Positions 10,578 to 44,843 of a stretch of 64,000 nucleotides of DNA are shown one piece after another. Made by a program: the position numbers and the translations under genes. The stretch is from Planctomycetaceae bacterium (GTDB lineage: Bacteria; Planctomycetota; Planctomycetia; Planctomycetales; Planctomycetaceae): NCBI GenBank assembly GCA_016795145.1, contig JAEUII010000121.1:1-64000 (forward strand), in the 5' to 3' direction. Every line of letters starts with the position of its first letter. The stretch's first letter is position 1. A model generated the notes under the pieces. It was not told where the DNA came from. It saw only the letters and a program-made list of their open reading frames with translations, and searched no databases.

Positions 10578-13500
10578 ATGCTGAACGCCATCATTCGATT
10601 TGCACTTCAACAGCGATTGCTGGTGATTGTTCTGGCGTGTTTTCTAACGGGCTACGGAACATGGACAGCGTTGCAGATGCCGATTGACGTCTTCCCGGAC
10701 CTCAATCGTCCCCGCGTCGTCATCATGACCGAAGCACCTGGGATGGCTCCGGAAGAAGTCGAATCGCTTATCACGTTTCCTCTCGAAACCGCAATGAACG
10801 GAGCGAACGGCGTCGAGGTTGTTCGCAGTTCTTCGGGCGTTGGCATTTCCGTAGTCTACGTCGAATTCGCCTGGGGCACGAATCTTTACACAGACCGCCA
10901 GGTCGTTGCTGAGAGACTTCAGATTGTGCAGGATCGGCTTCCGCCCGGCGTTTCACCTCAGCTCGCCCCCGTGTCGTCCATCATGGGTCAAATCGTGATG
11001 CTGGCGATGTGGAATGACAACAAAGAAGTGACGCCGATGGAACTTCGCACGTCGGCGGACTGGGTCGTGCGACAACGCCTGCTGACAATTCCCGGTGTGT
11101 CGCAAGTCTTCACGATGGGAGGCCAGCGCAAGCAGTTTCAGGTGCTGGTCGACCCGCAGTCCATGCTGCAGTACGGCGTGACTCTTGAGCAGGTTGAACA
11201 GGCGGTCATTCAGAGCAATCAGAACGCAACTGGTGGTTACCTCGATCGCCAGGGACCAAGCGAACTTCTCGTCCGCGCACTTGGACGCATTCAGTCGATC
11301 GATGACCTTAGAAACGTCGTCGTGACCATCCGCGATGGTCGCCCGGTGGCTTTGGCTCAGGTGGCCGATGTTCGCGAAGGGGCTCAGGTCAAACGAGGCG
11401 ACAGCAGCGCGTTTATGAAGCAGGCCGATGGCGACTGGAGCGGTGGCTCGGCGGTCATTCTGACGATCAACAAGCAGCCGGGTTCTGATACTCGTCGAGT
11501 CACCGAATCGATCGTGCAAGCGATGGAGGAACTGAAGCAGTCGCTTCCCAAAGGCACACGCATTGAAACCGTGTATGCGCAGAAGTCATTCATCGATCGA
11601 GCGATTCACAATGTGATGGAAGCACTTCGAGACGGCGGCATTCTGGTCGTCATCATTCTATTTTTGTTCCTGATGAATATTCGCACGACGTTCATCACGC
11701 TGACCGCCATTCCTCTGTCGTTGGTCATGACGGCCATCGTCTTCTCGGCACTTGGCATCTCGATCAACACGATGACCCTGGGCGGCCTGGCTGTCGCGAT
11801 CGGAGAACTCGTGGACGACGCCATCGTGGACGTCGAGAACATATTCCGGCGACTTCGCGAAAATCGCCATTTGCCAAATCCGCTGAATCCTCTGCTGGTC
11901 GTGTTTCGAGCCAGCACGGAGGTTCGTAATTCGATTGTGTTCAGCACAATGATTGTCGTTCTCGTCTTCATTCCGCTGTTTGCTCTGGACGGGATGGAAG
12001 GCAAACTGTTCATCCCGCTTGGGCTGGCTTACATCGTCTCGATCCTTGCTTCGCTGATCGTGTCACTGACGGTCACTCCGATTTTGTCCTACTGGCTGCT
12101 TGGTAATGCCGCAGGTCATGAAGAGAAGGATGGGGCACTACTGCGAATGCTGAAATGGGTGGCCGAAAAGGTGATTCGATTCAGCCTCAATTGGCCGGTT
12201 CTGAATCTGTCCGTCACGGTCTTGCTCGTCGTCATCGCAGGCTTCTTCGTCGCGGGGCTTGATAAGGACTTCCTGCCACCGTTCAACGAAGGGACCGTTC
12301 AGCTGAACGTGGTCCTCCCGCCTGGCACGTCGCTGTCGACAGCCAATCAGATCAATTCCATGGTGGAAACGTCACTGCAGGCGATCCCCGATGTGGCTCG
12401 ATTTGCCCGCCGCACCGGCCGAGCAGAACTCGACGAACACGCAGAGGGCGTGAACATGAGTGAGTATCTGATCGAAATGGATCCAGCGTCAAAACGAAAT
12501 CGAGAAGAACAACTGGCCGAGATCCGTGAAGCGATGGACCAGATCCCAGGGATCGTCACCGCAGTCGAACAGCCGATCTCGCATCTGATCTCCCACATGC
12601 TCTCTGGCGTGAAGGCTCAGATCGGTATCAAGCTGTACGGAACGGACCTCGACCTTCTGCGCCAAAAGGCAGAAGCAATGAAGGCGGAGATCGAACTGGT
12701 TCCCGGCGTCAAAGACCTGATGCTCGAACCTCAGGTCATCATTCCTCAGCTGCGTATCGAACTGAATCGTGAAAAGCTGCTGCTGAATGGTCTGACAGTG
12801 GAGAACGTGAATGAGTTTCTTGAGACGGCAATGAACGGCCGGATCGTTTCTGAGATCCTGACTGATCAGCGCACGTTCGACCTCGTGGTCCGCATGGGTG
12901 ACAACTATCGCGAAGACGTTGAAGCCTTGAAACGACTGTCGATTGAACTGCCCGACGGAGGAACGATTCCACTTGAGGCTGTTGCAGACATCTACGAATC
13001 GGGTGGTCCAAATACCGTCAATCGTGATAACGTGCGACGTCGAGTCGTCATTCAATGTAACGTTGCAGACCGGGGCGTCGTGGATGTCGTCGCGGACATA
13101 CAGAGGTTGCTGAAGCCGGTGATTGCCTCATTGCCTGCCGGGTACGATGTCGAATACGGTGGTCAGTTCCAGAGCCAGCAGTCTGCGTCGAAGAAGATGG
13201 CATTGCTGTTCATTGCATCGCTGATCGGCGTCTTCATGGTTCTGTTCACGATGTTCCGTTCCGTGAATCTCTCACTGCAGGTAATGGCCGCCTTGCCGAT
13301 GGCCTTCATTGGTTCCGTCGCGGCCCTCGTGTTGACTCAGCAAACTCTGACCATCGCCGCGATGGTTGGCTTCATCTCGCTCGGCGGGATCGCGTCCCGC
13401 AACGGGATTCTGCTGCTGAATCACTACCTGCATCTGGTGAAATACGAAGGAGAATCCTTCACTCACGCCATGATCATCCGCGCGGGACTCGAACGACTCG

Positions 13501-29724: not shown

Positions 29725-31014
29725 ATGATGCGTTCCTTTGTTTTCTGGTTCTTCATCGCCGCCCTCGCGAACAATCTGAATTCCTCGGCGCTGGCCCAGC
29801 GAGTCAATTACGAAGAAGCACCAATCAATTACAGCACTTCGAAGCCCGACAACCGGATTTCACAGTTGCAGGACCAGCTCACTGACCACACGGTAAGTTT
29901 GTCATTTGACGAGCACACGGGCTACCTGCGGTCTCTCCTCGAGACTCTCAGGGTTCCTGTCTCCTCGCAGGTGCTGACATTCGGAAGAACGAGCCTTCAG
30001 GATGACAAGATCTCACCAACAACTCCGCGTGCGATCTACTTCACTGATGACATTCATCTGGGGTTCGTTCAAAACGGCCTGATCGAAATCGCTGTTCAGG
30101 ACTCAAAACTCGGAATGGTGTTCTACACTCTCAGGCAGACACCGGACGAACCTCCCGTTTTTCAGAGACAGACAAATTCCTGCCTGACCTGTCACGGTGC
30201 AGCAAGGACAAAGAACGTTCCCGGTGTCCTTATCCGTTCCGTTTATCCGGATCCAGAAGGCCATCCAGTTGTTGCTGCGGGCAGCTTTCTTTCAACACAT
30301 CGCAGCCCGCTGAGTCAAAGATGGGGTGGTTGGTACGTGACAGGACGTCATGGTGAGCAGCAGCATCTCGGGAACTTCGTTCTGACATCTGCGAAGAAGC
30401 CAAAGACAATCGACAATTCCGCCGGCCACAACCTGGAACGGCTGGCCGATCGCTTTGACACAACTAAATACCTTGGTCCTCACAGTGACCTTGTCGCACT
30501 GATGGTGTTGGAGCATCAAACTGACACACTGAATGTCCTGACACAGACTTCTTTTGAGGTACGTCATGCCGAGTACCTGCTGAGCCAGGCGGGTGAAAAC
30601 TCGGAACAAAAAGCAGCTGCCACGAAACTGCTGAATGATCGCCTTGTGAAAAACACTGAGCAGATTGTGAAGGCGTTTCTCTTCGCTGACGAAGTGGCGC
30701 TTACGTCCTCAGTCTCCGGTACATCCGAGTTTGCCACGCATTTTGCGATGAACAGCAAGCGAGATTCAAAAGGCCGTTCACTCCGGGATTTCGATCTGCA
30801 GACTCGCATGTTCAAGTTCCCCTGCAGCTACCTGATCGAGACTCCTGCGTTCCGTGATCTTCCGGAGACTCTGCGTGAACAAGTCTTGATTCGCCTTTCG
30901 AAGTTTCTTAATTCGGACGAATCCATCAAGGGGCTGGAACGGCTCTCGGCGATAGACCGAACAGCCATTCTGGAAATCCTTCGTGAGACAGTTCCTGGTT
31001 TTCCGGCAAACTAA
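29725..31014 (+). CDS. Secreted protein with one CxxCH haem motif
   Basis: The 429-residue product has a signal peptide (VFWFFIAALANNLNSSALAQ) and a single haem-binding motif CLTCH (Cys153, Cys156, His157) in TNSCLTCHGAARTKNVPG, a typical cytochrome c context. VPGVLIRSVYPDPEGHPV and LSQRWGGWYVTGRHG follow, then a helical C-terminal half. I have seen this as a conserved planctomycete protein of unknown function, longer than simple class I cytochromes. It lies between a PQQ-like propeller and a DUF4198-like gene, which fits an electron-transfer setting outside the cytoplasm (inference). Two adjacent ATGs (29725, 29728) make the start slightly uncertain. Confidence 0.82.
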   Translation: MMRSFVFWFFIAALANNLNSSALAQRVNYEEAPINYSTSKPDNRISQLQDQLTDHTVSLSFDEHTGYLRSLLETLRVPVSSQVLTFGRTSLQDDKISPTTPRAIYFTDDIHLGFVQNGLIEIAVQDSKLGMVFYTLRQTPDEPPVFQRQTNSCLTCHGAARTKNVPGVLIRSVYPDPEGHPVVAAGSFLSTHRSPLSQRWGGWYVTGRHGEQQHLGNFVLTSAKKPKTIDNSAGHNLERLADRFDTTKYLGPHSDLVALMVLEHQTDTLNVLTQTSFEVRHAEYLLSQAGENSEQKAAATKLLNDRLVKNTEQIVKAFLFADEVALTSSVSGTSEFATHFAMNSKRDSKGRSLRDFDLQTRMFKFPCSYLIETPAFRDLPETLREQVLIRLSKFLNSDESIKGLERLSAIDRTAILEILRETVPGFPAN

Positions 31015-31090
31015 ATCCTTAGACCAAAATGGTCATCAAAGACTCTGCTCAAGTATCACTCGACTTCCAGTTCTTACAGGGATCCAAACG

Positions 31091-31903
31091 ATGATTCAGC
31101 GTCATGTCATTCTGTTTGTCGCGGCGATCACGATGATCTCCGCTTCTGCGTCTGCCCACGACACATGGGTAGAAGTGAATACATCCGAGGTTCGCGAGGG
31201 GAATGTTGTCTATGTCGATCTGAAACTGGGAAACCACGGCAATGAGCATCGAGACTTCAAGATGCACAGCCTCATCACTCTCGATAAGGTCAAGCTCGCG
31301 GTCAAGATGCCATGTGGCTGCACTGCCGATGTGAAGTCCGGACTTACAGCGACGGCCGCGGAGCCAAAGCAGGGATACTGGACCACCCGCTATGCGCCAA
31401 CCAAACCCGGTCTGCACGTCGTGGCACATGAATTGGACACGCTACATGGCAAAACCCGAGCCATCAAAAGCGCCAAGGCGTATTTCGTTGTCGGTCCCGA
31501 CGCCGCCGCAACCAAAGGGCCTCTTGCGAAGTGTACCGCACCGCTCGGGCATCCTCTGGAACTCGTTCCTCTTACCAATCCCGTGACAGAATCCGGCCCC
31601 AACAAACCTCTTAGAGTTCAGATTGTCTTCGAGGACAAGCCGTTGGCCAATGCTCGGGTTTCCTTTATTCCTCGGGGCCAGCAACTGGCGGAAGGATTCG
31701 ATGACCAGTTCGAACGCCGCACCGATGCAAAGGGAATTGCCGAATTCACTCCGTCGGAAGCGAACTTGTATCTGATCGTTGTGCATCATCAGGAACCTCA
31801 GCGATCCGGCGAAGGCTACGACAGCACGGCCTACTCAGCGACTCTCACTGTCGCTGTTCCAAACACCCCATTTTCCACAACGACCAAGACAGCCAGTAAA
31901 TAA
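31091..31903 (+). CDS. DUF4198-like periplasmic protein
   Basis: The ATG at 31091 has AGGGAT upstream and starts a signal peptide (HVILFVAAITMISASASAHD). The mature protein begins with the AHDTWVE segment common to DUF4198 members, followed by beta-rich sequence (VREGNVVYVDLKLGNHG) and a second module with RVQIVFEDKPLANARVSFIPRG and AEFTPSEANLYLIVVHH, an immunoglobulin-like fold. Length is 270 residues. The family is linked to nickel or cobalt uptake in some bacteria by gene neighbourhood, but no such partner is seen here. It follows the haem protein by about 75 bases and may share its transcript. Confidence 0.78.
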   Translation: MIQRHVILFVAAITMISASASAHDTWVEVNTSEVREGNVVYVDLKLGNHGNEHRDFKMHSLITLDKVKLAVKMPCGCTADVKSGLTATAAEPKQGYWTTRYAPTKPGLHVVAHELDTLHGKTRAIKSAKAYFVVGPDAAATKGPLAKCTAPLGHPLELVPLTNPVTESGPNKPLRVQIVFEDKPLANARVSFIPRGQQLAEGFDDQFERRTDAKGIAEFTPSEANLYLIVVHHQEPQRSGEGYDSTAYSATLTVAVPNTPFSTTTKTASK

Positions 31904-33313: not shown

Positions 33314-35047
33314 TTGAGTACTAAGTTGACTGACGTCTCTCGAAAGCCTGAAGTGCGTGAGTCGAATGATCTGGCAGATCATCGCGGCGGTGGAGAATCT
33401 GCTGGCCGGGGGCCGGCAACGCTAACATTGGTGTTGTCGGTCCTCCAGATGGCCTTTTCGATTCCGGGTCTCGTTTATCCGGCCGCCGATCTGTTCAGTA
33501 TTTCGCCGGGAAGGACCAGCAGCAACTGGGCACTGATCACAGCGTCCTTCGGACCGGCGGCCATCCTGAACCTCACTGCAGGTTTTGGAAGCCGTCGTGG
33601 CGTGCAATTGGTGACGGGACTGATCTGTGTTTGTTGCTATCTGCCATTGCTGCAGTCGCTCTACCAGACAAGTGTTCTCCAACAGCGTTGGGCAACACCA
33701 TCAGCATGGTTTGTTTTCGCAGCGATGGCAGGACTGTGGAGTGTGCTTGCGGCGATCAGCAGTGGGATCGTCAAAACTCAACCGGAAGCGATTGCTCATC
33801 GTCAGCAGATTCGTGAGCAGCAGTTGATTCTCGTCGCGGCTGCGGTTTGTTCCGCTGCTGAGTCCTTTGAAATTCCCTTTCTTCGGTTCGTTCCCGCCGC
33901 GATCGGGCTCTACCTCATCGCGCTTGGGCTGGAAGTGCTTTTGAGAACGGTCTTTTCCGCAGTGGCAGGTACGGGCATCGCGGATCATAGCCGTCAGCCG
34001 CTGCTGACTCGAAGCCTGCTGTTCGGCCAGGCGCCACGGGTAAATCTTTCAGCCGGACAATTGGCTGCGGCGACATTCGACATTCGACGCCCGGTAGTTT
34101 CGGCATTGGCGTCCACAGTGTTCATCGGATGGCTTTCTACTGGCGTCACTATCGTTTCGGTTGAAGAGCTGGCCTTGTATTACCGCAACGGTCACCAGGT
34201 TGAGCATGCACTTGCACCGGGGCTGCATCTCCACTTGCCAGTTCCGTTTGGGCGAACGAAGAAGGTTCCGGCACGTCGAGTTCAAGTGACGACGGTTGGT
34301 TACCTCCTGGATGCTCAAAGACTGTCTCAACAGAAGTATCTCTGGACGGAGTCACACGGAGACAAGGAAGTCTCCTTTGTTGTGGGAGATGGAACGGAGG
34401 TCGTCGCGATTAATGCGATCGTACAGCATTGTCCAAAAACCACTGTGACCGGCCTGCAGCAGTACATAACTCTTGCGGATTCGCCTGAGGAGATTGTGCG
34501 ACGGACGGCGATGAATGTGCTGCTGTCTGAATCCCGGACACTGAATGTGGCTCAGTTGCTGACAATGAATCGTTCTGAATGGAGTCAGCGTCTTCATGAG
34601 AGACTGAGCAGCGAGCTGGATCATCGAAACCTCGGGATCGAAATCAAATGCGTCGATGTCGTCAGTGTTCATCCTCCCGTGGAGATTGCTGCGGCCTACC
34701 TTGAGATCATCGATGCCAACGTACGTGCTGAGGCAGAGGTGATTGAAGCACGAGGAGCGCATGAATCAGAACTGTCCCGTTCAAGGATGATGGCGGATAC
34801 GACGATTGCCGATGCCACAGCCGCTGCGTCAGTGCGATTGACGGGGGTCGCTCAGGAAGTCGAGCAGCTGAAGGCACTGACTGAAGTCGCGGGAAATTTT
34901 CGAACCGTTTTTGAACGCCATGCCTGGTGCAATGCCGTTTCGGATGCCCTGTCTGATCGTGAGATCATCCTGCTTGGCACAGATGTGTCTTCAGGTGTCC
35001 GGCTTATTCTGGGAAGTGATGCACCAGCCGGAGACACTCAGAAATGA
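33314..35047 (+). CDS. SPFH/Band 7 protein with multi-helix N-terminus (HflK-like)
   Basis: The 577-residue frame begins at a TTG (33314); a GTG at 33353 is an alternative and neither has a strong ribosome site. The N-terminal 220 residues contain about six transmembrane helices, a seventh lies near 260-280, and a Band 7 domain follows (VEELALYYRNGHQVEHALAPG, PVPFGRTKKVPARRVQ) with a long helix typical of SPFH proteins (DANVRAEAEVIEARGAHESE). HflK-like proteins assemble into membrane cages that control proteases such as FtsH. The extra N-terminal helices are unusual. Its stop overlaps the next SPFH start by four bases, and it is the first of three SPFH genes joined to a metal ATPase. Confidence 0.85.
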   Translation: MSTKLTDVSRKPEVRESNDLADHRGGGESAGRGPATLTLVLSVLQMAFSIPGLVYPAADLFSISPGRTSSNWALITASFGPAAILNLTAGFGSRRGVQLVTGLICVCCYLPLLQSLYQTSVLQQRWATPSAWFVFAAMAGLWSVLAAISSGIVKTQPEAIAHRQQIREQQLILVAAAVCSAAESFEIPFLRFVPAAIGLYLIALGLEVLLRTVFSAVAGTGIADHSRQPLLTRSLLFGQAPRVNLSAGQLAAATFDIRRPVVSALASTVFIGWLSTGVTIVSVEELALYYRNGHQVEHALAPGLHLHLPVPFGRTKKVPARRVQVTTVGYLLDAQRLSQQKYLWTESHGDKEVSFVVGDGTEVVAINAIVQHCPKTTVTGLQQYITLADSPEEIVRRTAMNVLLSESRTLNVAQLLTMNRSEWSQRLHERLSSELDHRNLGIEIKCVDVVSVHPPVEIAAAYLEIIDANVRAEAEVIEARGAHESELSRSRMMADTTIADATAAASVRLTGVAQEVEQLKALTEVAGNFRTVFERHAWCNAVSDALSDREIILLGTDVSSGVRLILGSDAPAGDTQK

Positions 35048-36069
35048 CGACGCCACTTCCCATCATTTCCCCACCGGCATCATCAGGCAAACGGGCAAGA
35101 CTGGCCGGTGTCCTGCTGCTGCTGACGGTGTTCGGACTCTACGATTCCTTCTTCACGGTGCTGCAAGGTGAAGCGGTTGTCGTGACTCGCTTTGGACGCC
35201 CGGTTCGGGAGATCACAACAGCGGGCCCCTTTTGGAAGTTTCCGTCGCCGATTGACCAGCGACACGTGATTGATCGGCGTCGATGTGTGTTTTCTGCCCC
35301 GGAGTCAGCTGCATTTACATCAGACCGCCGAAGCATCGTCGTTTCCTGCTTTGTGATCTGGCATGTGGAGCAACCGCTGCTATGGATGCAAACTGTCTCC
35401 GATCGCGCAACGACGGAGGCGCGGCTCACGTCCATGATCCTGGCGTCTGCAAATCAGCGACTGGGGCAGTTTCCACTGAGTGCACTTGTTTCGACCAATC
35501 CTCGGGAGATTCGTCTGGCTGAACTGGAGAAACAGATTCATGACGAAGTCTCCGCGGTGGCGGAAAGCAGCATGGGAATTTCCATCGACGAAGTCTCCAT
35601 CGAGCGGATCGGTCTTCCTGCACAGAACATGGCGGCAGTCTTCGAACGTATGAGAGTTGAACGAGCTGCTGAGGCGAATCGGCTTAGGGCCGAAGGCGCC
35701 AGGGATGCTCAGGCGATCCGTGACAGGACTCACGTTGAAAGTCAGGAAATTCTGAGAAAGGGTCGCGAAGAAGCTGCAAGAATCAGCGCGGAGGCTGAAC
35801 GGAAAGCGGCCGAGATGCTGGCGAGTTCGCATCAAAAAGATCCGGAGTTCTATCGTTTCTGGAGTTCGCTGCAGGCCAGCAAACGCGTACTGAAGGAAAA
35901 GGCGACGCTGATTCTGAATTCCGATCAGCTGTTCTTCGATGTGTTCAATGAGACGGAAGGAAATCGTTCCTCGACCACGCCGGCAGGTAACGGTGAGCCA
36001 GTCGCGTCGCCCGCCGATCGCACGAGTCAGCCTGCCGATGTGAAGGGAGAAGCGCGTCGTGCAGATTGA
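35044..36069 (+). CDS. SPFH/Band 7 protein (HflC-like)
   Basis: The ATG overlaps the previous stop (ATGA). The 341-residue product has one transmembrane segment (about residues 20-40), EAVVVTRFGRPVREITTAGPFWKFPSPIDQ (split as the start of the Band 7 domain), AFTSDRRSIVVSCFVIW and the VSIERIGLPAQNMAAVFERMRVER helix followed by Ala/Glu/Arg-rich coiled coil (about 200-265), which match HflC closely. The coiled coil ends in a DPEFYRFWSSLQA segment also seen in HflC. It should pair with the flanking HflK-like proteins in a membrane cage. No ftsH is present in the window. Confidence 0.88.
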   Translation: MTTPLPIISPPASSGKRARLAGVLLLLTVFGLYDSFFTVLQGEAVVVTRFGRPVREITTAGPFWKFPSPIDQRHVIDRRRCVFSAPESAAFTSDRRSIVVSCFVIWHVEQPLLWMQTVSDRATTEARLTSMILASANQRLGQFPLSALVSTNPREIRLAELEKQIHDEVSAVAESSMGISIDEVSIERIGLPAQNMAAVFERMRVERAAEANRLRAEGARDAQAIRDRTHVESQEILRKGREEAARISAEAERKAAEMLASSHQKDPEFYRFWSSLQASKRVLKEKATLILNSDQLFFDVFNETEGNRSSTTPAGNGEPVASPADRTSQPADVKGEARRAD

Positions 36070-37267
36070 CGAATTCTCCTCAGCCAAAGAAACAGCGCGA
36101 CCTTCGTCTGATGTTGTCTCGACGATGGAAGTAGGTATCGCCAGCGCGCGCCGTGTGTATTGGATCCTGCTTGGGCTGCTGTTGCTGGGGTACGCGTGCT
36201 CCGGAATGACTCGCATCGGTCCAAATGAAGTCGGTCTTCTGCGTCGATTTGGCCGACTGGTGGAACGAGATGGAAAGACCGTGATTTTTCCTCCAGGTTT
36301 GATGTTTACCTGGCCCGTTCCGATCGACGAAGTGATTCGTGTTCCAGTCAGGCAGGAACATGTCGTTCGAATTCAAATCCCGTCAAGTGACGCAGGAATT
36401 GCAACAGAAGCAGGGGCAAAGACAGTTTCAGAGTCAGCATCAGAATCAAGATCAGAACCCGCTGCGGAACTGGCAAAAGGCACGGATACAAGTGGAGAAG
36501 CAGATAACAACGGAACAGCAACAGCAGCAGCCACATCAGCCTCAGAAGCAGTAGCAAGCACTGCGACCAGCGAGATTACTCCTGTCGCAAACTCTGTTCT
36601 GACTGGTGATCAGAGTTTACTTTCGGCGGAAGTGGAGATTCGGTTTCGCATTGTTGAACCTCAGTTCTGGGTGACATCGTCGGGGCAGCCGCAGGAAGTG
36701 ATCCGAGTCACTCTTGGCGCGTCAACGGCAGCGGTGTTGCGGCAATGGAAGATCGATGATGCACTGCTTCGTCATCGCAGCGTGCAGGATTCCGATGGCG
36801 AAAACCTCAGCGACGCGATTCTGGTTCATCTCCGATCTGCGCTCGAACCGTTCCGCCTGGGAGTAGAAATCACAGCGATGGAGATCATCTCGCTGCAGCC
36901 GCCGGAAGACGTCGCAGAAGCATTCGCAGCCGTCCAGGATGCTCGGGTCGATCAGGAAGCGTGGCGTGAGACAGCAGAAGGTGAACACGAAGAAGTGCTG
37001 CTAAATGCCGAACGCATGGCGCTGGTCGCCATCGCTGACTCGAAGGGAAAACTGGATTCTATCCCTGGAAAAATCGCTGAGGAGCTTGCGCTTTTCGAAG
37101 CAGACTTGAAGGCCTACCAGCAGGCTTCCCACGTCACCCGCGAACGATTGCGGCGAGAAGCATGGGAGTCGATTGTTCGAAACGTGGGGAAGCTGATCAC
37201 GGCTCCTTCAGGAACGACCGACGGTCGAATCCTGATTCCGTTCCTGTCAACGGAGCCGAAGCGATGA
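36059..37267 (+). CDS. Third SPFH/Band 7 protein (HflK-like) with low-complexity insert
   Basis: A GTG at 36059 with GGGAG upstream overlaps the HflC-like gene by 11 bases and gives 402 residues; the ATG at 36125 would give a shorter form. One transmembrane helix (about residues 33-52) is followed by the Band 7 start (GPNEVGLLRRFGRLVERDGKT). Residues about 113-172 are a Ser/Ala/Glu/Thr low-complexity insert encoded by an A/G-rich, repeat-like DNA tract inside the domain. The domain then resumes (LSAEVEIRFRIVEPQFWV) and ends in a charged helix (about 285-380). Its stop overlaps the P-type ATPase start (ATGA), indicating translational coupling. Confidence 0.85.
   Translation: MQIDEFSSAKETARPSSDVVSTMEVGIASARRVYWILLGLLLLGYACSGMTRIGPNEVGLLRRFGRLVERDGKTVIFPPGLMFTWPVPIDEVIRVPVRQEHVVRIQIPSSDAGIATEAGAKTVSESASESRSEPAAELAKGTDTSGEADNNGTATAAATSASEAVASTATSEITPVANSVLTGDQSLLSAEVEIRFRIVEPQFWVTSSGQPQEVIRVTLGASTAAVLRQWKIDDALLRHRSVQDSDGENLSDAILVHLRSALEPFRLGVEITAMEIISLQPPEDVAEAFAAVQDARVDQEAWRETAEGEHEEVLLNAERMALVAIADSKGKLDSIPGKIAEELALFEADLKAYQQASHVTRERLRREAWESIVRNVGKLITAPSGTTDGRILIPFLSTEPKR
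36400..36575 (+). repeat. A/G-rich low-complexity tract within a coding sequence
   Basis: The tract is dense in CAGCA/CAGAA/TCAGA units, for example repeated CAGAATCAAGATCAG and ACAGCAACAGCAGCAGCC. It codes for Ser/Ala/Glu/Thr in the used frame, Gln-rich sequence in another and Leu-rich sequence on the other strand, so it looks like DNA-level expansion. Confidence 0.75.
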
Positions 37268-39255
37268 GTGTTGTTTCGAGCGGACATAACCAGTCATGGA
37301 TGACGGGCTGGATCTTCGGGACACTCAGGACCGAGGCGTTTGAGTGGCAGATTGGCCACGCGGCATTCACCACAGGACTTCTGGCACTCGGGAGCTTCGC
37401 CGCTCCGCTCTACGTTTCCGCTGAAGTCGGATTGCTGTTGCGGTTTGCTGCGGCCGTTGTCGCGGCGATCCCGTGTTGCTTCAAGGTTGTGACAAATCGA
37501 GGTGGCGAAGAGACCGACAGTTACTCCGATCAGCTTGTCGCCCTCGCGGTACTTGGCGCGCTGATCGGCGGGGAATACGCGGCAGCGGTGCTCGTTCCCG
37601 TGATCATGGACATTGGACACTACCTTGAACAGCGTGGCATCCAGGGGACGCAGGCTGCCATTGCCGGCCTGCGTGAGCTGACAGCGGTTCATGCCATTCT
37701 GTTTGATGGAACGACTGAGAAACAGGTGTCGGTGGATTCGCTGAAGAATGGAGATCACGTGCTGATCCGTCCGGGCGATACCGTTCCGGCGGACGGAGAG
37801 ATCGTGCGAGGTTCCAGCTCGCTCGACGAGTCCTCCTTAACGGGCGAAACAACGCCTCGTGATGTGACAACGGGGGACTCGATTCACGCCGGTACGATGA
37901 ACATCAGCGGTCGCATCGAGATTCGAGTTGCGGCGACGGGAGAATCGACGGCACTTGGCCGGATTCGCCAGCTTCTGGCAGCCGCCGCGCAGAGTCGAAC
38001 GCCATTCATCCGAATGGTGGAACGGTATGCGGAACTTTACGTACCACTTGTTGTTCTTCTGGCCGGAGCAGTGTTCTATCAGACTCGGCAGATGGAACGA
38101 GTCATCACTGTTCTGGTCGTCAGTTGTCCGTGCGCGCTTGTTCTGGCTGGCCCGGCAGCCATGATCGCCGCGCTGGCGACGTGCAGCCGAAATGGGATTC
38201 TGATCCGCGGGACTCGATTTCTGGAATCACTCGCGACCGCAGACGCAGTGGCTTTTGACAAGACGGGAACACTGACAGAAGGTCAACTGACTGTCGCCCG
38301 GATCGAATGTCGTGACGGAGTCGATGAACGCGAGGTTCTGGTCGCCGGCGCGATGTGTGCGGCGGTCTCAACGCACCCTGTCGCACAAGCCGTGCTTCAG
38401 GAAGCCCGAAGGCGTTCGATCCCGATTGACGCTGACACCCACGAACAACATGAAAGTCCCGGCAGAGGCATTGAGCTGACATCGAACGGGAAGACTTTTC
38501 GCATGGGGCGTCCCGATTGGGTGGTGTCAGCGAAAATGGAGGCGGCGAATCACCACGCAGCGATCGATGATCATGTCGGCCCCGTCGTCAGTATTGCAGT
38601 GAATGACCGGTGGCTGGGAACAATCCTGCTGTCGGATCAAATCCGCTCCGAATCGTGGCAGGCCATTTCAGCTCTGCGTGCTCAGGGCATTCAGCGAATC
38701 TCCATGGTGACGGGTGACCGCCGATCGGCCGCCATTCCGGTCGCGAGGGCGTTGCAGCTGCATGTTGCAGTGTCCGAATCTCTGCCGGAGGAGAAGCTGG
38801 CGTTTGTGCGGCGTGAGTCGGCATCGGGGCACAGACTGATCGTGGTCGGTGACGGAATCAACGATTCCCTGGCGCTCGCGGGCGGAGATGTCGGAGTTGC
38901 GATGGGTGCACGAGGGTCGGACATTGCTATCCAGAGTTCGGATATTGCTCTGATGACAAACGACCTCCGGCGACTTCCCTTTGCTGTGTCCCTCGCGCGA
39001 AGAACTCGCACTGTTGTTGCGCAGAATATTGTGCTCGCCGCAGCGTCGTCCGCAATCATGCTGCTTCTGGGTGCTCTTGGAGTTCTGACGGCTGTTTCCG
39101 GAGCCGTCCTTCACAATGCAGGTACGGCATTCGTCATTGCGAACAGTGCGCGGCTGCTGCGTCGATCTGAAGCAGAACAGCTGCTGATGAATCAACATGT
39201 TCCGCAGAACAGTGAACCTGGTGGTTCACTGTCTTCGGAAGTAACGATTTCCTGA
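37264..39255 (+). CDS. Heavy-metal (P1B-type) translocating ATPase
   Basis: I place the start at the ATG at 37264, overlapping the third SPFH stop by four bases; the product is 663 residues. Motifs: LTGET (actuator), SCPCALVLAGPAA with the metal-binding CPC (about 288-290), DKTGTLTEG (phosphorylated Asp about 332), the STHPVAQAV histidine motif of P1B pumps and GDGINDSLALAGGDVGVAMG. There is no N-terminal metal-binding domain with a CxxC. The last helices contain HNAGTAFVIANSARLL, close to the HEGxT type and unlike the Cu(I) type, so zinc, cadmium, cobalt or another divalent metal is more likely, but the ion is not settled. Coupling to three SPFH genes is the notable feature. Confidence 0.92.
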   Translation: MSVVSSGHNQSWMTGWIFGTLRTEAFEWQIGHAAFTTGLLALGSFAAPLYVSAEVGLLLRFAAAVVAAIPCCFKVVTNRGGEETDSYSDQLVALAVLGALIGGEYAAAVLVPVIMDIGHYLEQRGIQGTQAAIAGLRELTAVHAILFDGTTEKQVSVDSLKNGDHVLIRPGDTVPADGEIVRGSSSLDESSLTGETTPRDVTTGDSIHAGTMNISGRIEIRVAATGESTALGRIRQLLAAAAQSRTPFIRMVERYAELYVPLVVLLAGAVFYQTRQMERVITVLVVSCPCALVLAGPAAMIAALATCSRNGILIRGTRFLESLATADAVAFDKTGTLTEGQLTVARIECRDGVDEREVLVAGAMCAAVSTHPVAQAVLQEARRRSIPIDADTHEQHESPGRGIELTSNGKTFRMGRPDWVVSAKMEAANHHAAIDDHVGPVVSIAVNDRWLGTILLSDQIRSESWQAISALRAQGIQRISMVTGDRRSAAIPVARALQLHVAVSESLPEEKLAFVRRESASGHRLIVVGDGINDSLALAGGDVGVAMGARGSDIAIQSSDIALMTNDLRRLPFAVSLARRTRTVVAQNIVLAAASSAIMLLLGALGVLTAVSGAVLHNAGTAFVIANSARLLRRSEAEQLLMNQHVPQNSEPGGSLSSEVTIS

Positions 39256-39267
39256 AGGAGATGAACG

Positions 39268-40050
39268 ATGCGATTTCTGAAACTATCACTGGCCATCGCC
39301 GCGATGCTGATGACGGCTGGCTCAACAATGGCTCAGGAGTGGGGCGATCTGTCCGGTACGTTTGTACTGACAGAAAAGGCGCCTGTGCCGAAGAAACTGG
39401 AGGTGACCAAGGACCTTGAATGCTGTGGGCAGTACCTTGAGGAGATCGTCGATGAAACCATCATCACGGGCGATTCGGGTGGACTGTCTGGTGTTTACAT
39501 CTGGCTGCGACCTTCTCCAAAGCAGAAGGTGACGATTCATCCGGAAGTTGAAAAACAGCACACCGAAAATGCTGCTGTGATCGAAAACCTTCACTGTCGG
39601 TTCGAACCACATGTCGTCGCGCTCTGGGCTGGTCATCAGAAGCTCATCGTGAAGAACAGCGACCCGATTCCTCAGGTCGTAAAAATCGACATGGTGAAGA
39701 ACCAGGCGATTAATGTCACAATGGCGATTGGTGACAAGGTGGAGCAGAAGTTCCCAGTGGCCGAGCGTTTGCCGGGCAAAGTGACATGTGGACTTCACCC
39801 GTGGGAAAATGCATACCTGCTGGCATCCGAAACTCCATACTTCGCGACCACCGGCAAGGACGGAAAATTCTCCATCAAGAACATTCCAGCCGGCGAATGG
39901 GAATTCCAGTTGTGGCACGAAAGCGTTGGATACTTTGCTGCGAAAGCTGACTGGAAATCTGGTCGCTTCACACACAAGATCGCAAAGGGAGCAAACGATC
40001 TCGGAGAGATCAAACTCACGTTGAAGGACTTGACCCCAAAAAAGAAGTAG
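39268..40050 (+). CDS. Secreted cupredoxin-like protein
   Basis: GAAGGAG precedes the ATG, which lies 12 bases after the ATPase stop. The 260-residue product has a signal peptide (FLKLSLAIAAMLMTAGSTMAQ), an ECCGQYLEE segment, then a domain with VVALWAGHQKLIVKNSDPIPQVVKID and RLPGKVTCGLHPWENAYLL, resembling a cupredoxin or methylamine-utilisation-type beta sandwich with a His and a Cys-x-x-His near its end, and a C-terminal carboxypeptidase-regulatory-like module (DGKFSIKNIPAGEWEFQLWHE). It could bind copper or another metal in the periplasm. Its position right after a metal ATPase supports a role in metal handling (inference). Confidence 0.8.
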   Translation: MRFLKLSLAIAAMLMTAGSTMAQEWGDLSGTFVLTEKAPVPKKLEVTKDLECCGQYLEEIVDETIITGDSGGLSGVYIWLRPSPKQKVTIHPEVEKQHTENAAVIENLHCRFEPHVVALWAGHQKLIVKNSDPIPQVVKIDMVKNQAINVTMAIGDKVEQKFPVAERLPGKVTCGLHPWENAYLLASETPYFATTGKDGKFSIKNIPAGEWEFQLWHESVGYFAAKADWKSGRFTHKIAKGANDLGEIKLTLKDLTPKKK

Positions 40051-41299: not shown

Positions 41300-41755
41300 C
41301 GAATCTTCAGGACAAAGTGATCGGGTTGGGAGAAATGGATCTTCTGCCGATGTTCGGCCTCGTCAATCGCCTGCGATTCAGGCCCGGCAGACAACGCTGT
41401 GAAGGATTCTTCGTCGTGCTCTCGGCAGCTACGTCGAAGTCCCATCTCCCTTGGCCTGAGTCGCAGCTTTGCATTTCTCCTGAGCTGCAGTGGTCCTCGA
41501 ATGACCAAAAGAACACTCCCCTCGTTCTTGCCAATCTGAGCATCCGCCCGAAGACAGTTTCGCCAGGGCGTGCATTTGGGCGCGCTGTGTGATCACCTTT
41601 GTTGTTTTGGAAAATTCTGACGAAAAATCGACATGAATCAGACAACTGCCAATGTCGAACGTCTCCAGGTCCTGACTGTTGGAGCATTGGACAGACGGTT
41701 GCCTCGTTGCCCGTTAGCGACAGGGCCATTCCTGCCAATCATCAAAGAGAAAGTT
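41300..41755. other. Gene-free stretch upstream of hydrolase-like operon
   Basis: Open frames exist on both strands but none has a signal peptide, motif or good ribosome site. The promoter of the 41756-44843 genes should be here; no boxes were recognised. Confidence 0.5.
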
Positions 41756-42799
41756 ATGAAGACACGTGCCCTGTTGTTGATGTGGGTGTTCCTCTGGCCG
41801 ACATCGGGATCGTCAGTTGCAGCGCCTCAGGACGCGGACCCGACTCGGGAATTCGAGATTCGCAACTCCCGCGCCTTTCTCGGGGGACATGAAGTGGATC
41901 TCTGGGGAATCCGCTGTGGCAACGCGCTGTACAGTACTGGAGTAACGGAACGACATGTCAGAGCCATGGACAACATGGTGGCACATGGTATCAACCTTAT
42001 TGGCGTTTATATTCAGGGGTCAAATGGTGGCTGGCCAGATGAAGACGCCGGGCTCAATGGATTCACTCGCGACGGACGCCTGAAACCAGAGGTCGCCTCG
42101 CGGCTGGAATGGTTAATTCGCGAGGCAGACCGACGTGGTATGGTAGTCATGGTAGGCCTATGCAGCCCACGAAAAGACCAGGCATTTGATAGCGAAGATG
42201 CACTCAAGCGAGCGATTGAGGCAACAGCGCGATTCCTAACCGAAAGGCACCTGCGGAATGTCTTCGTTGATATTATGCACGAATTTGATCATAGCGAACG
42301 GGCAGATTTGGCAATCTTTCGAATGCCAGACGGGGCGACAAAAAAAGCTCAGATGACCGCATGGTTCAAGGCAGCAGCACCCGGCATTGAGGTAGGAATC
42401 TGTCCCTATGACAAGTCGGATTCGGGCAGTGTCTATCCAGGAATGGATGTGCATATGATTCAAAAAGAAATGGATATTCCTGCCGATGGTTTTGTCGTCA
42501 ATGTCGAGACACAGAAACAGGATTCCTACGAGAACGATGGAGTCTTTAACGAAGGACAGATTGAGCACGTTCTTCATGACTGCGAACGCTTCCGCAGTGC
42601 TCCAAATGCCGTGATGCTGTTTCATGCGGCATTTATCCAGGGAATTCGAAACTACAGCGGCACGGCCCCTCACCCGGAAATGGGTGGATACGGAACGACA
42701 GTCAGCGACCGAGGTGTGAGATTCTATTATGAATGGGTTCAAGAGAATATCGGACGCTGGGAGTTCCCTCGGCACACTTTATCGGAGCAACAGAGATGA
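41756..42799 (+). CDS. Exported TIM-barrel (GH-A clan-like) hydrolase, paralog 1
   Basis: The ATG at 41756 starts a signal peptide ([20 protein letters not shown]); the frame extends to 41633 without support. The 347-residue product begins its domain with [28 protein letters not shown], the way glycoside hydrolase barrels often do. Glu176 in [11 protein letters not shown] fits the acid/base at the end of strand 4, and Glu251 in GFVVNVETQ fits the nucleophile on strand 7 of clan GH-A. Substrate unknown. The paralog at 43770-44843 keeps both Glu residues. The stop overlaps the start of a DUF1559 gene by four bases, so the two are translationally coupled. Confidence 0.75.
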
Positions 42800-43740
42800 T
42801 CAGGAGGCGACCGGGTTTCACACTCATCGAATTACTGGTTGTTATTGCGATTATTGCGGTCCTGGTAGCACTATTGTTGCCAGCTGTGCAGTCTGCTCGA
42901 GAAGCCGCACGCAAGATCCAGTGTCGAAATAACCTTAAGCAGATCGGCCTGGCCCTGCAGAACTATGAAGGAACACACTTACGGTTACCTTCCGCAAGAA
43001 CAGGCTCACCACACCTCTGGTCTGCCTCTGCTCAAATCCTGCCCTTCATTGAGGGTTCTACCATCTTTGCGCAGATTGATTTCGGCAAAGGCTCACTGGA
43101 TATAGCCAATGCGAATGCAGTCCGAGCAAAAATTCCTGTTTTCCTGTGCCCTTCCGATTCCGGACCAGAGCAGCTGAACGCGAACTTCGGTGCAAACAAC
43201 TACTGCGCAAATGCTGGCACCGGACTTCAAAACGGAGGTAGTTTTCGTCCGGAAGACGGGCCCCAGACAATTGACGGTGTGTTCTTCGACCGGTCTTCGA
43301 CTCGATTCGGAGACGTCACTGACGGACTCAGTAATACTGCAGCCTATAGCGAAACGACCCGTGGCACGGGCATCGATACGATTGGCGCTGCACCCTCGAA
43401 GCCGTCGATGCAATACGGTCAGGGACCGTCACTGCAGCCCGTGACCGACGCTTTCTGCGCTGGCTCAATTCTCATCTGGAGCGGTCAGAGAGGACGAGAA
43501 TGGGCAAGGGGGAGCTTTATCTATTCATCCTACAACCACTATTGGCCACCCAATTCAAAATCGCTTGACTGTCTGTCTGGCAACGTAAGTGGTCGCATCG
43601 CAGCCCGCAGTTACCATACTGGTGGAGTCAATGTATTGTTTCTCGACGGTCATGTTTCCTTCCAGAGTGACAATACAGATCTGTTCGTATGGCGCAGCAT
43701 CGCAACGCGTGGCGGCGGTGAAGTCATCAGCGTTGATTAG
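42796..43740 (+). CDS. DUF1559 prepilin-like protein coupled to hydrolase genes
   Basis: The ATG at 42796 overlaps the upstream stop (ATGA); the longer frame from 42733 is rejected because it lies inside the hydrolase gene. The 314-residue product starts [20 protein letters not shown], continues with [26 protein letters not shown] and ends with [19 protein letters not shown], all diagnostic of DUF1559. The variant [14 protein letters not shown] is slightly unlike the three paralogs at 46-50 kb. Its position inside a pair of hydrolase paralogs suggests a dedicated role in delivering or displaying them (inference). Confidence 0.93.
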
Positions 43741-43769: not shown

Positions 43770-44843
43770 ATGTCATCACGTTTTGTTCGCAGCATCATCA
43801 TCTCCACTTTGTTCTTCGGGCTCCAGTGCACCCAGTCACGCATTCAGGCACAGGAAACTGCCACGCCTTCAAATGACGTTTCGGCAACAAGAGAATTCGA
43901 GATTCGCGACGGAAGACCGTACCTTGGCGGCCAGCCAATCCGTCTCTGGGGACTTCGCTGCAATAATGCCCTGATGAGCCCTGCCGTGACAGAGAGACTG
44001 GTGAATAATCTGGACAACTATGCCGAACATGGAATCAACTTCATCAGCATTTCGCTCCAGGGAACAAACGGCGGCTTCCCGAATGTAGATGCGGGACCCA
44101 ACGCATTTACTCCGGACGGTCGACTCATCGCATCGTTCGCGAAACGAACAGAGACCGTCATCAGAGAGGCTGATAAACGAGGAATGCTGGTGTGCCTCGT
44201 TGTCATGATGCCACGAAAAGATGAGTTACTGGTCGATGAAGCAGCAGTCAGGACAGCAATTCAGCAGACTGCGACGCTGTTGGAGTCACGCAAACTTCGC
44301 AATGTAACCGTGAACTTGTTTCAGGAATTTCATCATCCGACACGCATTCACCATGCGATCTTTCGCGAACCTGACGGCGACCTTAAGAAGAGCACTCTGA
44401 CCGGTTGGTTCAAAGAAATTGCGCCGGGGATCGAGACCGGGATCTGTCCCAACCATCTTACAGGATCATCTTATGATTATCCCGGCTGTGAAGTGAAGTT
44501 CTTCCAGGAGGAGATGGCGATCCCTGACGTAGGCTTCAGCATCAATACCGAAACAGCCGACCGTGACGCCACAGGACACGAGGGTGTTTTCAATCGGTTC
44601 CATATAGCGTCGATGGAGAAGGAGTGGAGAAACTACCTTGATCACCCCAATTCTGCGATGCTCTTTCGTAGCCCGTACGTTGAGGACGTCGGAGGCCAGA
44701 TGGGAACGGGACCTAACTTCGAGATGGGTGGGCGAGGAACAGGGGACAAAGACCGCGGCGTACGGCACTATTTCGAATGGGTTCAGACAAATGTCGGCGT
44801 CTGGAAATTCCCGACGCATATCCGAGCAAACCAGCCTCAGTGA
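43770..44843 (+). CDS. Exported TIM-barrel (GH-A clan-like) hydrolase, paralog 2
   Basis: GGAG lies upstream of the ATG. This 357-residue protein is a clear paralog of the 41756-42799 product: shared REFEIR, LGG, LWG(I/L)RC.NAL, VTER, HGIN, GW/GF-P-D/N-DAG, DGRL, IREAD(R/K)RGM, MPRKD and the terminal MGG(Y/R)GT...DRGVR.Y(Y/F)EWVQ.N(I/V)G.W(E/K)FP. Glu186 (NLFQEFHHP) and Glu261 (GFSINTETA) are the equivalents of the putative catalytic pair. A signal peptide (SIIISTLFFGLQCTQSRIQA) is present. It lies 29 bases after the DUF1559 gene. The divergence between the paralogs (roughly half of positions) suggests different substrates. Confidence 0.75.
   Translation: MSSRFVRSIIISTLFFGLQCTQSRIQAQETATPSNDVSATREFEIRDGRPYLGGQPIRLWGLRCNNALMSPAVTERLVNNLDNYAEHGINFISISLQGTNGGFPNVDAGPNAFTPDGRLIASFAKRTETVIREADKRGMLVCLVVMMPRKDELLVDEAAVRTAIQQTATLLESRKLRNVTVNLFQEFHHPTRIHHAIFREPDGDLKKSTLTGWFKEIAPGIETGICPNHLTGSSYDYPGCEVKFFQEEMAIPDVGFSINTETADRDATGHEGVFNRFHIASMEKEWRNYLDHPNSAMLFRSPYVEDVGGQMGTGPNFEMGGRGTGDKDRGVRHYFEWVQTNVGVWKFPTHIRANQPQ

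Follow-up and report, generated by a model that had tools for sequence, protein, structure and literature searches.

A widespread trio of HflK/C-type proteins, linked to a P1B ATPase in a planctomycete, that looks like a housing for metal transporters

Introduction

The bacterial SPFH proteins HflK and HflC, which in Escherichia coli form a complex with FtsH, build membrane cages that regulate this protease. For most bacterial SPFH assemblies, we know of no client. The subject here is a gene cassette from a Planctomycetaceae bacterium (GenBank assembly GCA_016795145.1), found within positions 1 to 64,000 of contig JAEUII010000121.1, forward strand (the whole of this stretch is referred to as the window), in which three SPFH genes, designated S1, S2 and S3, are followed by the gene for a P1B heavy-metal ATPase. 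It resembles the E. coli HflK/HflC-FtsH system in that HflK- and HflC-type subunits are encoded in one operon and that the predicted model of S1 fits the solved E. coli subunits, but it differs in having three subunits instead of two, a six-helix domain in S1, no adjoining ftsH, a P1B ATPase as the gene partner, and scores that fall under the hflK and hflC cut-offs. The trio looks like a widespread and barely described housing for metal transporters: it is very likely that HflK/C-type proteins and metal transporters are functionally linked, and we infer, with a probability of about two in three, that an HflK/C-type hetero-oligomer assembles with a transporter and houses it.

The best-known relative appears to be the operon PA2439-PA2438-PA2437-(PA2436)-hmtA (PA2435) of Pseudomonas aeruginosa, matched through published gene lists, in which an HflK-type, an HflC-type and a third SPFH gene precede a P1B ATPase gene. 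This operon is zinc-responsive, as its genes PA2439, PA2438, PA2437 and hmtA are induced 9.0-, 10.6-, 14.4- and 5.6-fold, respectively, in a znuA mutant (PMC4542158), Zur with zinc binds its promoter (PMC8531726), and several of its products are up on zinc depletion (PMC11761036). HmtA has been reported to import zinc and copper, although a review states that confirmation is needed (PMC10393844). In this literature the pump and the SPFH genes are treated apart, and the latter are given no role. In 2026, a three-SPFH operon of strain PA14, paFlo5-6-7, was deleted with few phenotypes according to the main text, namely slightly less biofilm and attenuation in Galleria; that text describes the operon as limited to a small subset of species, mentions neither hmtA nor any ATPase, and appears to contain no metal test (PMC13086221). 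By gene order in published lists, paFlo5-6-7 is very probably PA2439-PA2437. The term 'undescribed system', used for the planctomycete locus in a first-pass annotation made from the letters alone, was therefore too strong, given that PA2439-PA2434 with hmtA is known from zinc-starvation data and that the SPFH trio has very probably already been deleted in PA14, with no role assigned. A 2009 survey of prokaryotic SPFH proteins never mentions ATPase, cation, metal or transporter (PMC2636767), and a search of open-access full-text literature found nothing that joins SPFH, metal and P-type ATPase.

Scaffolds beside P1B ATPases have a precedent in the PacL1/CtpC metal efflux platform of Mycobacterium tuberculosis, in which a membrane scaffold encoded by the ATPase gene is needed for the level and clustering of the pump; however, PacL1 is not an SPFH protein but belongs to DUF1490, has a single transmembrane domain and carries Glu/Ala repeats plus a metal-binding motif (PMC9374683), and the window holds no such gene. 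In the solved aquaporin-1/stomatin complex (PDB 9zd2), going by the title of the entry, a membrane transport protein is the client of an SPFH assembly; this complex differs in being human and in having a water channel in that place.

Results and discussion

All four genes of the cassette lie on the plus strand, and each overlaps the next. S1 (33314-35047; 577 amino acids from a TTG whose use as start codon is uncertain) shares ATGA at 35044-35047 with S2 (35044-36069; 341 amino acids), S2 shares 11 bases, GTGCAGATTGA, at 36059-36069 with S3 (36059-37267; 402 amino acids, GTG start), and S3 shares ATGA at 37264-37267 with the ATPase gene (37264-39255; 663 amino acids, counted from the ATG at 37264 and not from 37162, where a mechanical open reading frame finder begins). 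Twelve bases separate the end of the ATPase gene from a cupredoxin-like gene at 39268, which is preceded by a GGAG ribosome-binding site. The first-pass annotation had read the locus in the same way: its three SPFH genes, P1B ATPase gene and cupredoxin-like gene are all present as open reading frames, the two ATGA overlaps, the 11-base overlap and the 12-base gap stand where it placed them, and ftsH is indeed not beside these genes, the three ftsH genes of the genome being on other contigs. A Pfam search of the operon proteins returned nothing beyond Band_7, ATPase and a weak CarboxypepD match, and found no DUF1490 scaffold of the PacL type.

S1, S2 and S3 belong to the SPFH/Band 7 superfamily, passing the PF01145 cut-off of 23.6 bits with 38.8, 69.9 and 61.3 bits, respectively. 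None of them passes the HflK or HflC equivalog cut-off, as S1 and S3 reach 62.7 and 91.3 bits against TIGR01933 (hflK, 159.4) and S2 reaches 124 bits against TIGR01932 (hflC, 134.4). In the SPFH tree, a quick tree with many weakly supported forks, S2 goes with HflC, and S1 and S3 fall into two separate HflK-type groups, with the window S1 on a long branch. Conservation in S1 is high at two histidine motifs, LWTxxHxxE and HPP. S3 carries a Ser/Ala/Glu-rich low-complexity insertion within its SPFH domain (36383-36598).

By profile and motif, the fourth protein is a P1B heavy-metal ATPase, lacking an HMA domain. It is over the cut-offs for TIGR01525 (498 bits vs 346) and TIGR01512 (437 bits) and has CPC at 38125-38133 (residue 288), DKTGT at 38257-38271 (residue 332) and HNAG at 39112-39123. 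The SPFH-linked ATPases, including that of the window, share a common ancestry: they form one clade in the ATPase tree (SH-aLRT 100). Outside it fall 25 P1B ATPases without such linkage, among them ZntA and CopA of E. coli; most of the 25 are paralogs encoded in the same genomes. The window ATPase sits in a group of 32 that also holds Pseudomonas ATPases (support 99), and its clade takes in the ATPases that accompany this cassette in Pseudomonas species other than P. aeruginosa. By gene order and tree position, the window cassette is of the hmtA type, with three SPFH genes and then a P1B ATPase of the same clade. ATPases of this clade have CPC or its variants CPG, CPT, TPC and APT, together with a mostly LHN-type motif in the last helix, and their metal specificity may therefore vary; at L039, L040, L041, L085, L088, L091, L082 and L083, for instance, CPC is replaced by CPG, APT or TPT, and metal binding should differ.

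The cassette is real, mobile and widespread. A query with S1 gave a match in 39 of 294 Planctomycetota genomes, and the order S1-S2-S3-P1B recurs around these matches in many families, the ATPase gene being just upstream of the trio at L064 and L068. When named genomes were scanned with an S1 alignment, the cassette was found in Verrucomicrobiota, Bacillota (Clostridia, Oscillospiraceae), Riflebacteria, Fermentibacterota, Bdellovibrionota, Myxococcota, Acidobacteriota and Pseudomonadota (Pseudomonas, Aquitalea), and the four-gene set is present in at least eight phyla; many of these genomes are metagenome bins in which single labels may be wrong (one is labelled Akkermansia), and the records for Pseudomonas and Aquitalea come from named strains. 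Plasmids of Rhizobium tumorigenes, Klebsiella aerogenes and Burkholderia ubonensis, the latter two typed as conjugative, bear all four genes, annotated by others as HflK, HflC or SPFH, HflK or SPFH, and P-type ATPase. Megablast with the Klebsiella plasmid copy found no cassette in E. coli genomes. Because four-base overlaps are numerous and the four-gene order is repeated in dozens of unrelated genomes, the arrangement is more than chance. The co-occurrence of three SPFH genes with a P1B ATPase, which the first-pass annotation had suggested looking for, thus extends over many phyla instead of being confined to close relatives.

In a tally of about 115 loci, a sample mostly found through S1, the SPFH trio is present at 92, with the P1B ATPase gene within 300 base pairs (bp) in 65 of these, within 2.5 kilobases (kb) in six and fused in another six. 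Since loci found through S1 are biased towards S1, a reverse search was run from the ATPase profile alone in 147 Planctomycetota genomes. Among the 30 best loci, an SPFH gene is directly upstream of the ATPase gene in 22, and at least five of the remainder have the trio 1.0-1.5 kb away on the other side (L233, L234, L235, L238 and L226, the last being the same locus as L064). The trio is likewise present at L240, an additional ATPase gene in one of these genomes. Recurrent neighbours of the cassette are restricted to ZIP, SO_0444/ArsP, ABC and unrelated genes. Of these, the ABC genes flank the cassette in Verrucomicrobiota and in some Planctomycetota, with an ABC ATPase gene at 18 loci and genes for ABC-2 type permeases to one side or to both, at loci including L095, L097, L098, L100, L102, L105, L110, L111, L117 and L140.

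Direct fusions connect S1-type SPFH domains with three kinds of metal transporter. At six loci (L115, L123, L125, L132, L133 and L047), from Bryobacterales and other Acidobacteriota plus one Planctomycetota genome, a full P1B ATPase runs into an S1-type SPFH domain that is followed by S2 and S3; at seven loci the N-terminus of S1 is a Cu/Zn exporter of the SO_0444 type (ArsP_1), and at three it is a CDF transporter. In the L123 and L070 fusions both halves are over curated cut-offs (P1B 548 vs 346 and HflK 206 vs 159; CDF 120 vs 82 and HflK 186 vs 159), and in the L048 fusion SO_0444 scores 389 vs 300 with an HflK match of 146, slightly below 159. At several loci, ZIP zinc transporter genes share four-base overlaps with SO_0444::SPFH genes. 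The SO_0444-family efflux proteins and CDF transporters are thus joined in relatives to the domain type present in the window S1, which differs in having neither by Pfam. SPFH proteins and transporters came together, or were re-joined, more than once, since most of the fused S1 proteins are closer to canonical HflK and the ATPases found in fusions branch as a clade of their own. As three unrelated metal transporter families are fused to one scaffold, contact between scaffold and transporter is suggested, and the pattern would otherwise be hard to explain. In a Candidatus Abyssobacteria bin, MinD/Mrp-like ATPases with ferredoxin domains (L104:6239-7132 and 10900-11850) flank a CDF::SPFH trio.

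These fusions bear on one alternative, co-regulation only, according to which the trio responds to metal stress by forming a membrane microdomain and has no contact with the ATPase at any time. SPFH proteins are viewed as general membrane organisers in the PA14 study (PMC13086221), operon position alone is not proof of contact, and in some Planctomycetota the ATPase gene is 1.0-1.5 kb upstream of S1 instead of overlapping S3, all of which would agree with it; but single-polypeptide fusions exist, four-base overlaps are frequent in distant phyla, and the four-gene unit is carried on plasmids, making co-regulation without contact improbable.

Another alternative is that the trio modulates FtsH in the manner of HflKC, either by recruiting FtsH for turnover of the pump or by serving as the general HflKC of the genome. 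By profile and tree S1-S3 are of the HflK/C type, S1 by predicted fold as well, and the genome has three ftsH genes and five other SPFH proteins that are all under the hflK and hflC cut-offs. Against this, only one of the approximately 115 loci has an ftsH gene, and it lies about 5 kb past the end of the cassette; P. aeruginosa has canonical HflK/HflC besides the trio (PMC13086221); and the direct fusions, which involve metal transporters of three kinds, suggest that the transporter is the client. Modulation of FtsH is accordingly rated unlikely, though less so than co-regulation alone.

In the housing reading preferred here, HflC-type S2 and HflK-type S1 and S3 would form a ring or vault resembling that of HflK/C, with a metal transporter, here the P1B ATPase, as the client in place of FtsH. 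S1 would join the scaffold to the transporter, given that its N-terminal membrane part elsewhere is itself a transporter (P1B ATPase, CDF or SO_0444 Cu/Zn exporter); in the window variant, six helices of uncertain origin make up this part, and the ATPase is encoded separately. The N-terminal parts of S1 proteins would be expected to have an even number of helices, so that one further helix brings the SPFH domain into the periplasm, as in HflK/C. The pump would then sit in its own membrane patch beneath a periplasmic dome, by which it may be stabilised and the crossing metal shielded. Assembly with the pump, the dome geometry and any effect on pump stability or metal routing are inferred, and the vault as a periplasmic antechamber is a tentative idea, with the odds rather against it. 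By its relatives, the metal of the window pump is probably zinc- or copper-like; the fused transporters are from families known mainly for export, and the direction of transport is left uncommitted. The multi-phylum gene order and the three kinds of fusion lend strong support to the core idea of the first-pass annotation, namely that these SPFH proteins specifically serve a metal pump; its further suggestion, that they govern the stability of the pump through contact, is plausible.

Several observations weigh against the housing reading. Clade ATPases at L236, L237 and L239 have no SPFH gene within the DNA examined, L239 starting 385 bases from the end of its contig. With the fused ATPases in a separate clade, the fusions speak for this kind of association in general but not directly for the window pair, and contact between the trio and the ATPase is proposed from gene order and fusions. 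In Mycobacterium, flotillin is not needed for PacL1/CtpC foci (PMC9374683). By a simple consensus scan there is no Zur-like box upstream of the window genes, the best site matching 8 of 14 positions, as at most other loci; the same scan gives Zur-like sites upstream of several Pseudomonas cassettes, and the window differs in this from the Zur-controlled P. aeruginosa operon. Lastly, the clade ATPase was found in none of 12 genomes of the same genus (G304-G315), for which reason the module is considered accessory; it is patchy and was perhaps acquired.

If true, the housing reading would explain a zinc-regulated SPFH operon of P. aeruginosa that has been given no role, would add a new way of organising metal pumps beside the PacL platforms, and would bear on the question of the import direction of HmtA. 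On the fusion evidence, metal transporters are a testable client for one large SPFH group.

The membrane domain of S1 sets it apart within the trio. The AlphaFold model of S1, with a predicted local distance difference test score of 78, has helices at residues 33-62, 69-90 (broken), 94-118, 129-152, 158-184, 188-218 and 247-274, followed by the SPFH domain. The first six constitute a predicted membrane domain (residues 33-218; 33410-33967, plus strand), in line with the six or so extra membrane helices that had been noticed in one SPFH protein on first reading, and the seventh leads into the SPFH domain, helix and domain together spanning residues 247-481 (34052-34756, plus strand); the SPFH domain is predicted to be periplasmic and contains the Band_7 match (PF01145, E 1.3e-9, residues 280-481). 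As modelled, S1 has an HflK/C-like fold: Foldseek matched the model to HflK/C (7vhq, E 1e-13, probability 1.00), and stomatin and prohibitin were also matched. Positive charges in the loops number 6, 2, 1 and 3 in the predicted inner segments vs 1, 1 and 1 in the outer ones, a bias that weakly suggests an orientation with the N-terminus inside and the SPFH domain in the periplasm.

It is about an even bet that the six-helix domain is a degenerate CDF transporter. In hhalign, helices 3-6 of the S1 family matched SPFH-fused CDF domains with a probability of 93.5 and ordinary CDFs with 39, vs at most 6.4 for controls. The HxxxD metal sites of CDFs are not kept, Q replacing H and D in the aligned stretch. 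PF01545 (CDF) had no match in the window S1, where Pfam finds neither CDF nor SO_0444, and Foldseek with a modest-quality model of the S1 membrane domain of a relative gave no CDF among its matches. A broader picture can be drawn in which the HflK/C-type vault is an interchangeable socket, unrelated pumps having been plugged repeatedly into S1, the window S1 keeps a dead CDF as a docking piece, and a periplasmic antechamber separates the metal, but taken as a whole it is speculative and rather doubtful. ArsP as the source of the six helices was ruled out by hhalign (probability 0.16). In an Oligoflexia bin, a short CDF-like open reading frame (L082:8606-9241, 38 bits) lies directly upstream of S1.

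The cupredoxin-like gene downstream (39268-40050, plus strand), which encodes a predicted secreted protein of 260 amino acids, is probably co-transcribed with the cassette yet outside the conserved module. It is missing from other cassettes, and its family, which is common in the phylum and has six members in this genome, five of them away from the locus, does not travel with the cassette. The type-1 copper ligands H, C, H and M are kept in most relatives of the family; in the window protein, as aligned, Q replaces the H of NSDPxxHN and E the M of HPWM, so that two of the four are lost and the His, Cys, His, Met set of a type-1 copper cupredoxin is incomplete. The fuller reading of the first-pass annotation was a periplasmic metal route, along which copper exported by the pump would be led by the SPFH domain to the cupredoxin-like protein. 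The proximity of the gene, 12 bp downstream, and its signal-peptide-like start speak for such a hand-over, but with these ligands replaced, the gene missing from other cassettes and most of its family encoded elsewhere in the genome, the route is very improbable and this part of the annotation did not hold.

Further genes of the window surround the operon. A DUF4198 protein (PF10670) is encoded at 31085-31903, about 1.4 kb upstream of the cassette, and the Klebsiella plasmid likewise has a gene annotated as DUF4198 immediately before the cassette (L280:6819-7406), which may be a coincidence. Before it, at 29725-31014, lies the gene for a secreted protein with a haem-type CLTCH motif and no Pfam or NCBIfam match. 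On the other side, two similar secreted proteins (REFEIRxxRxxLGGxxxxLWGxRC...) are encoded at 41633-42799 and 43770-44843, and their genes flank, and partly overlap, a prepilin-like gene of the DUF1559 type at 42733-43740.

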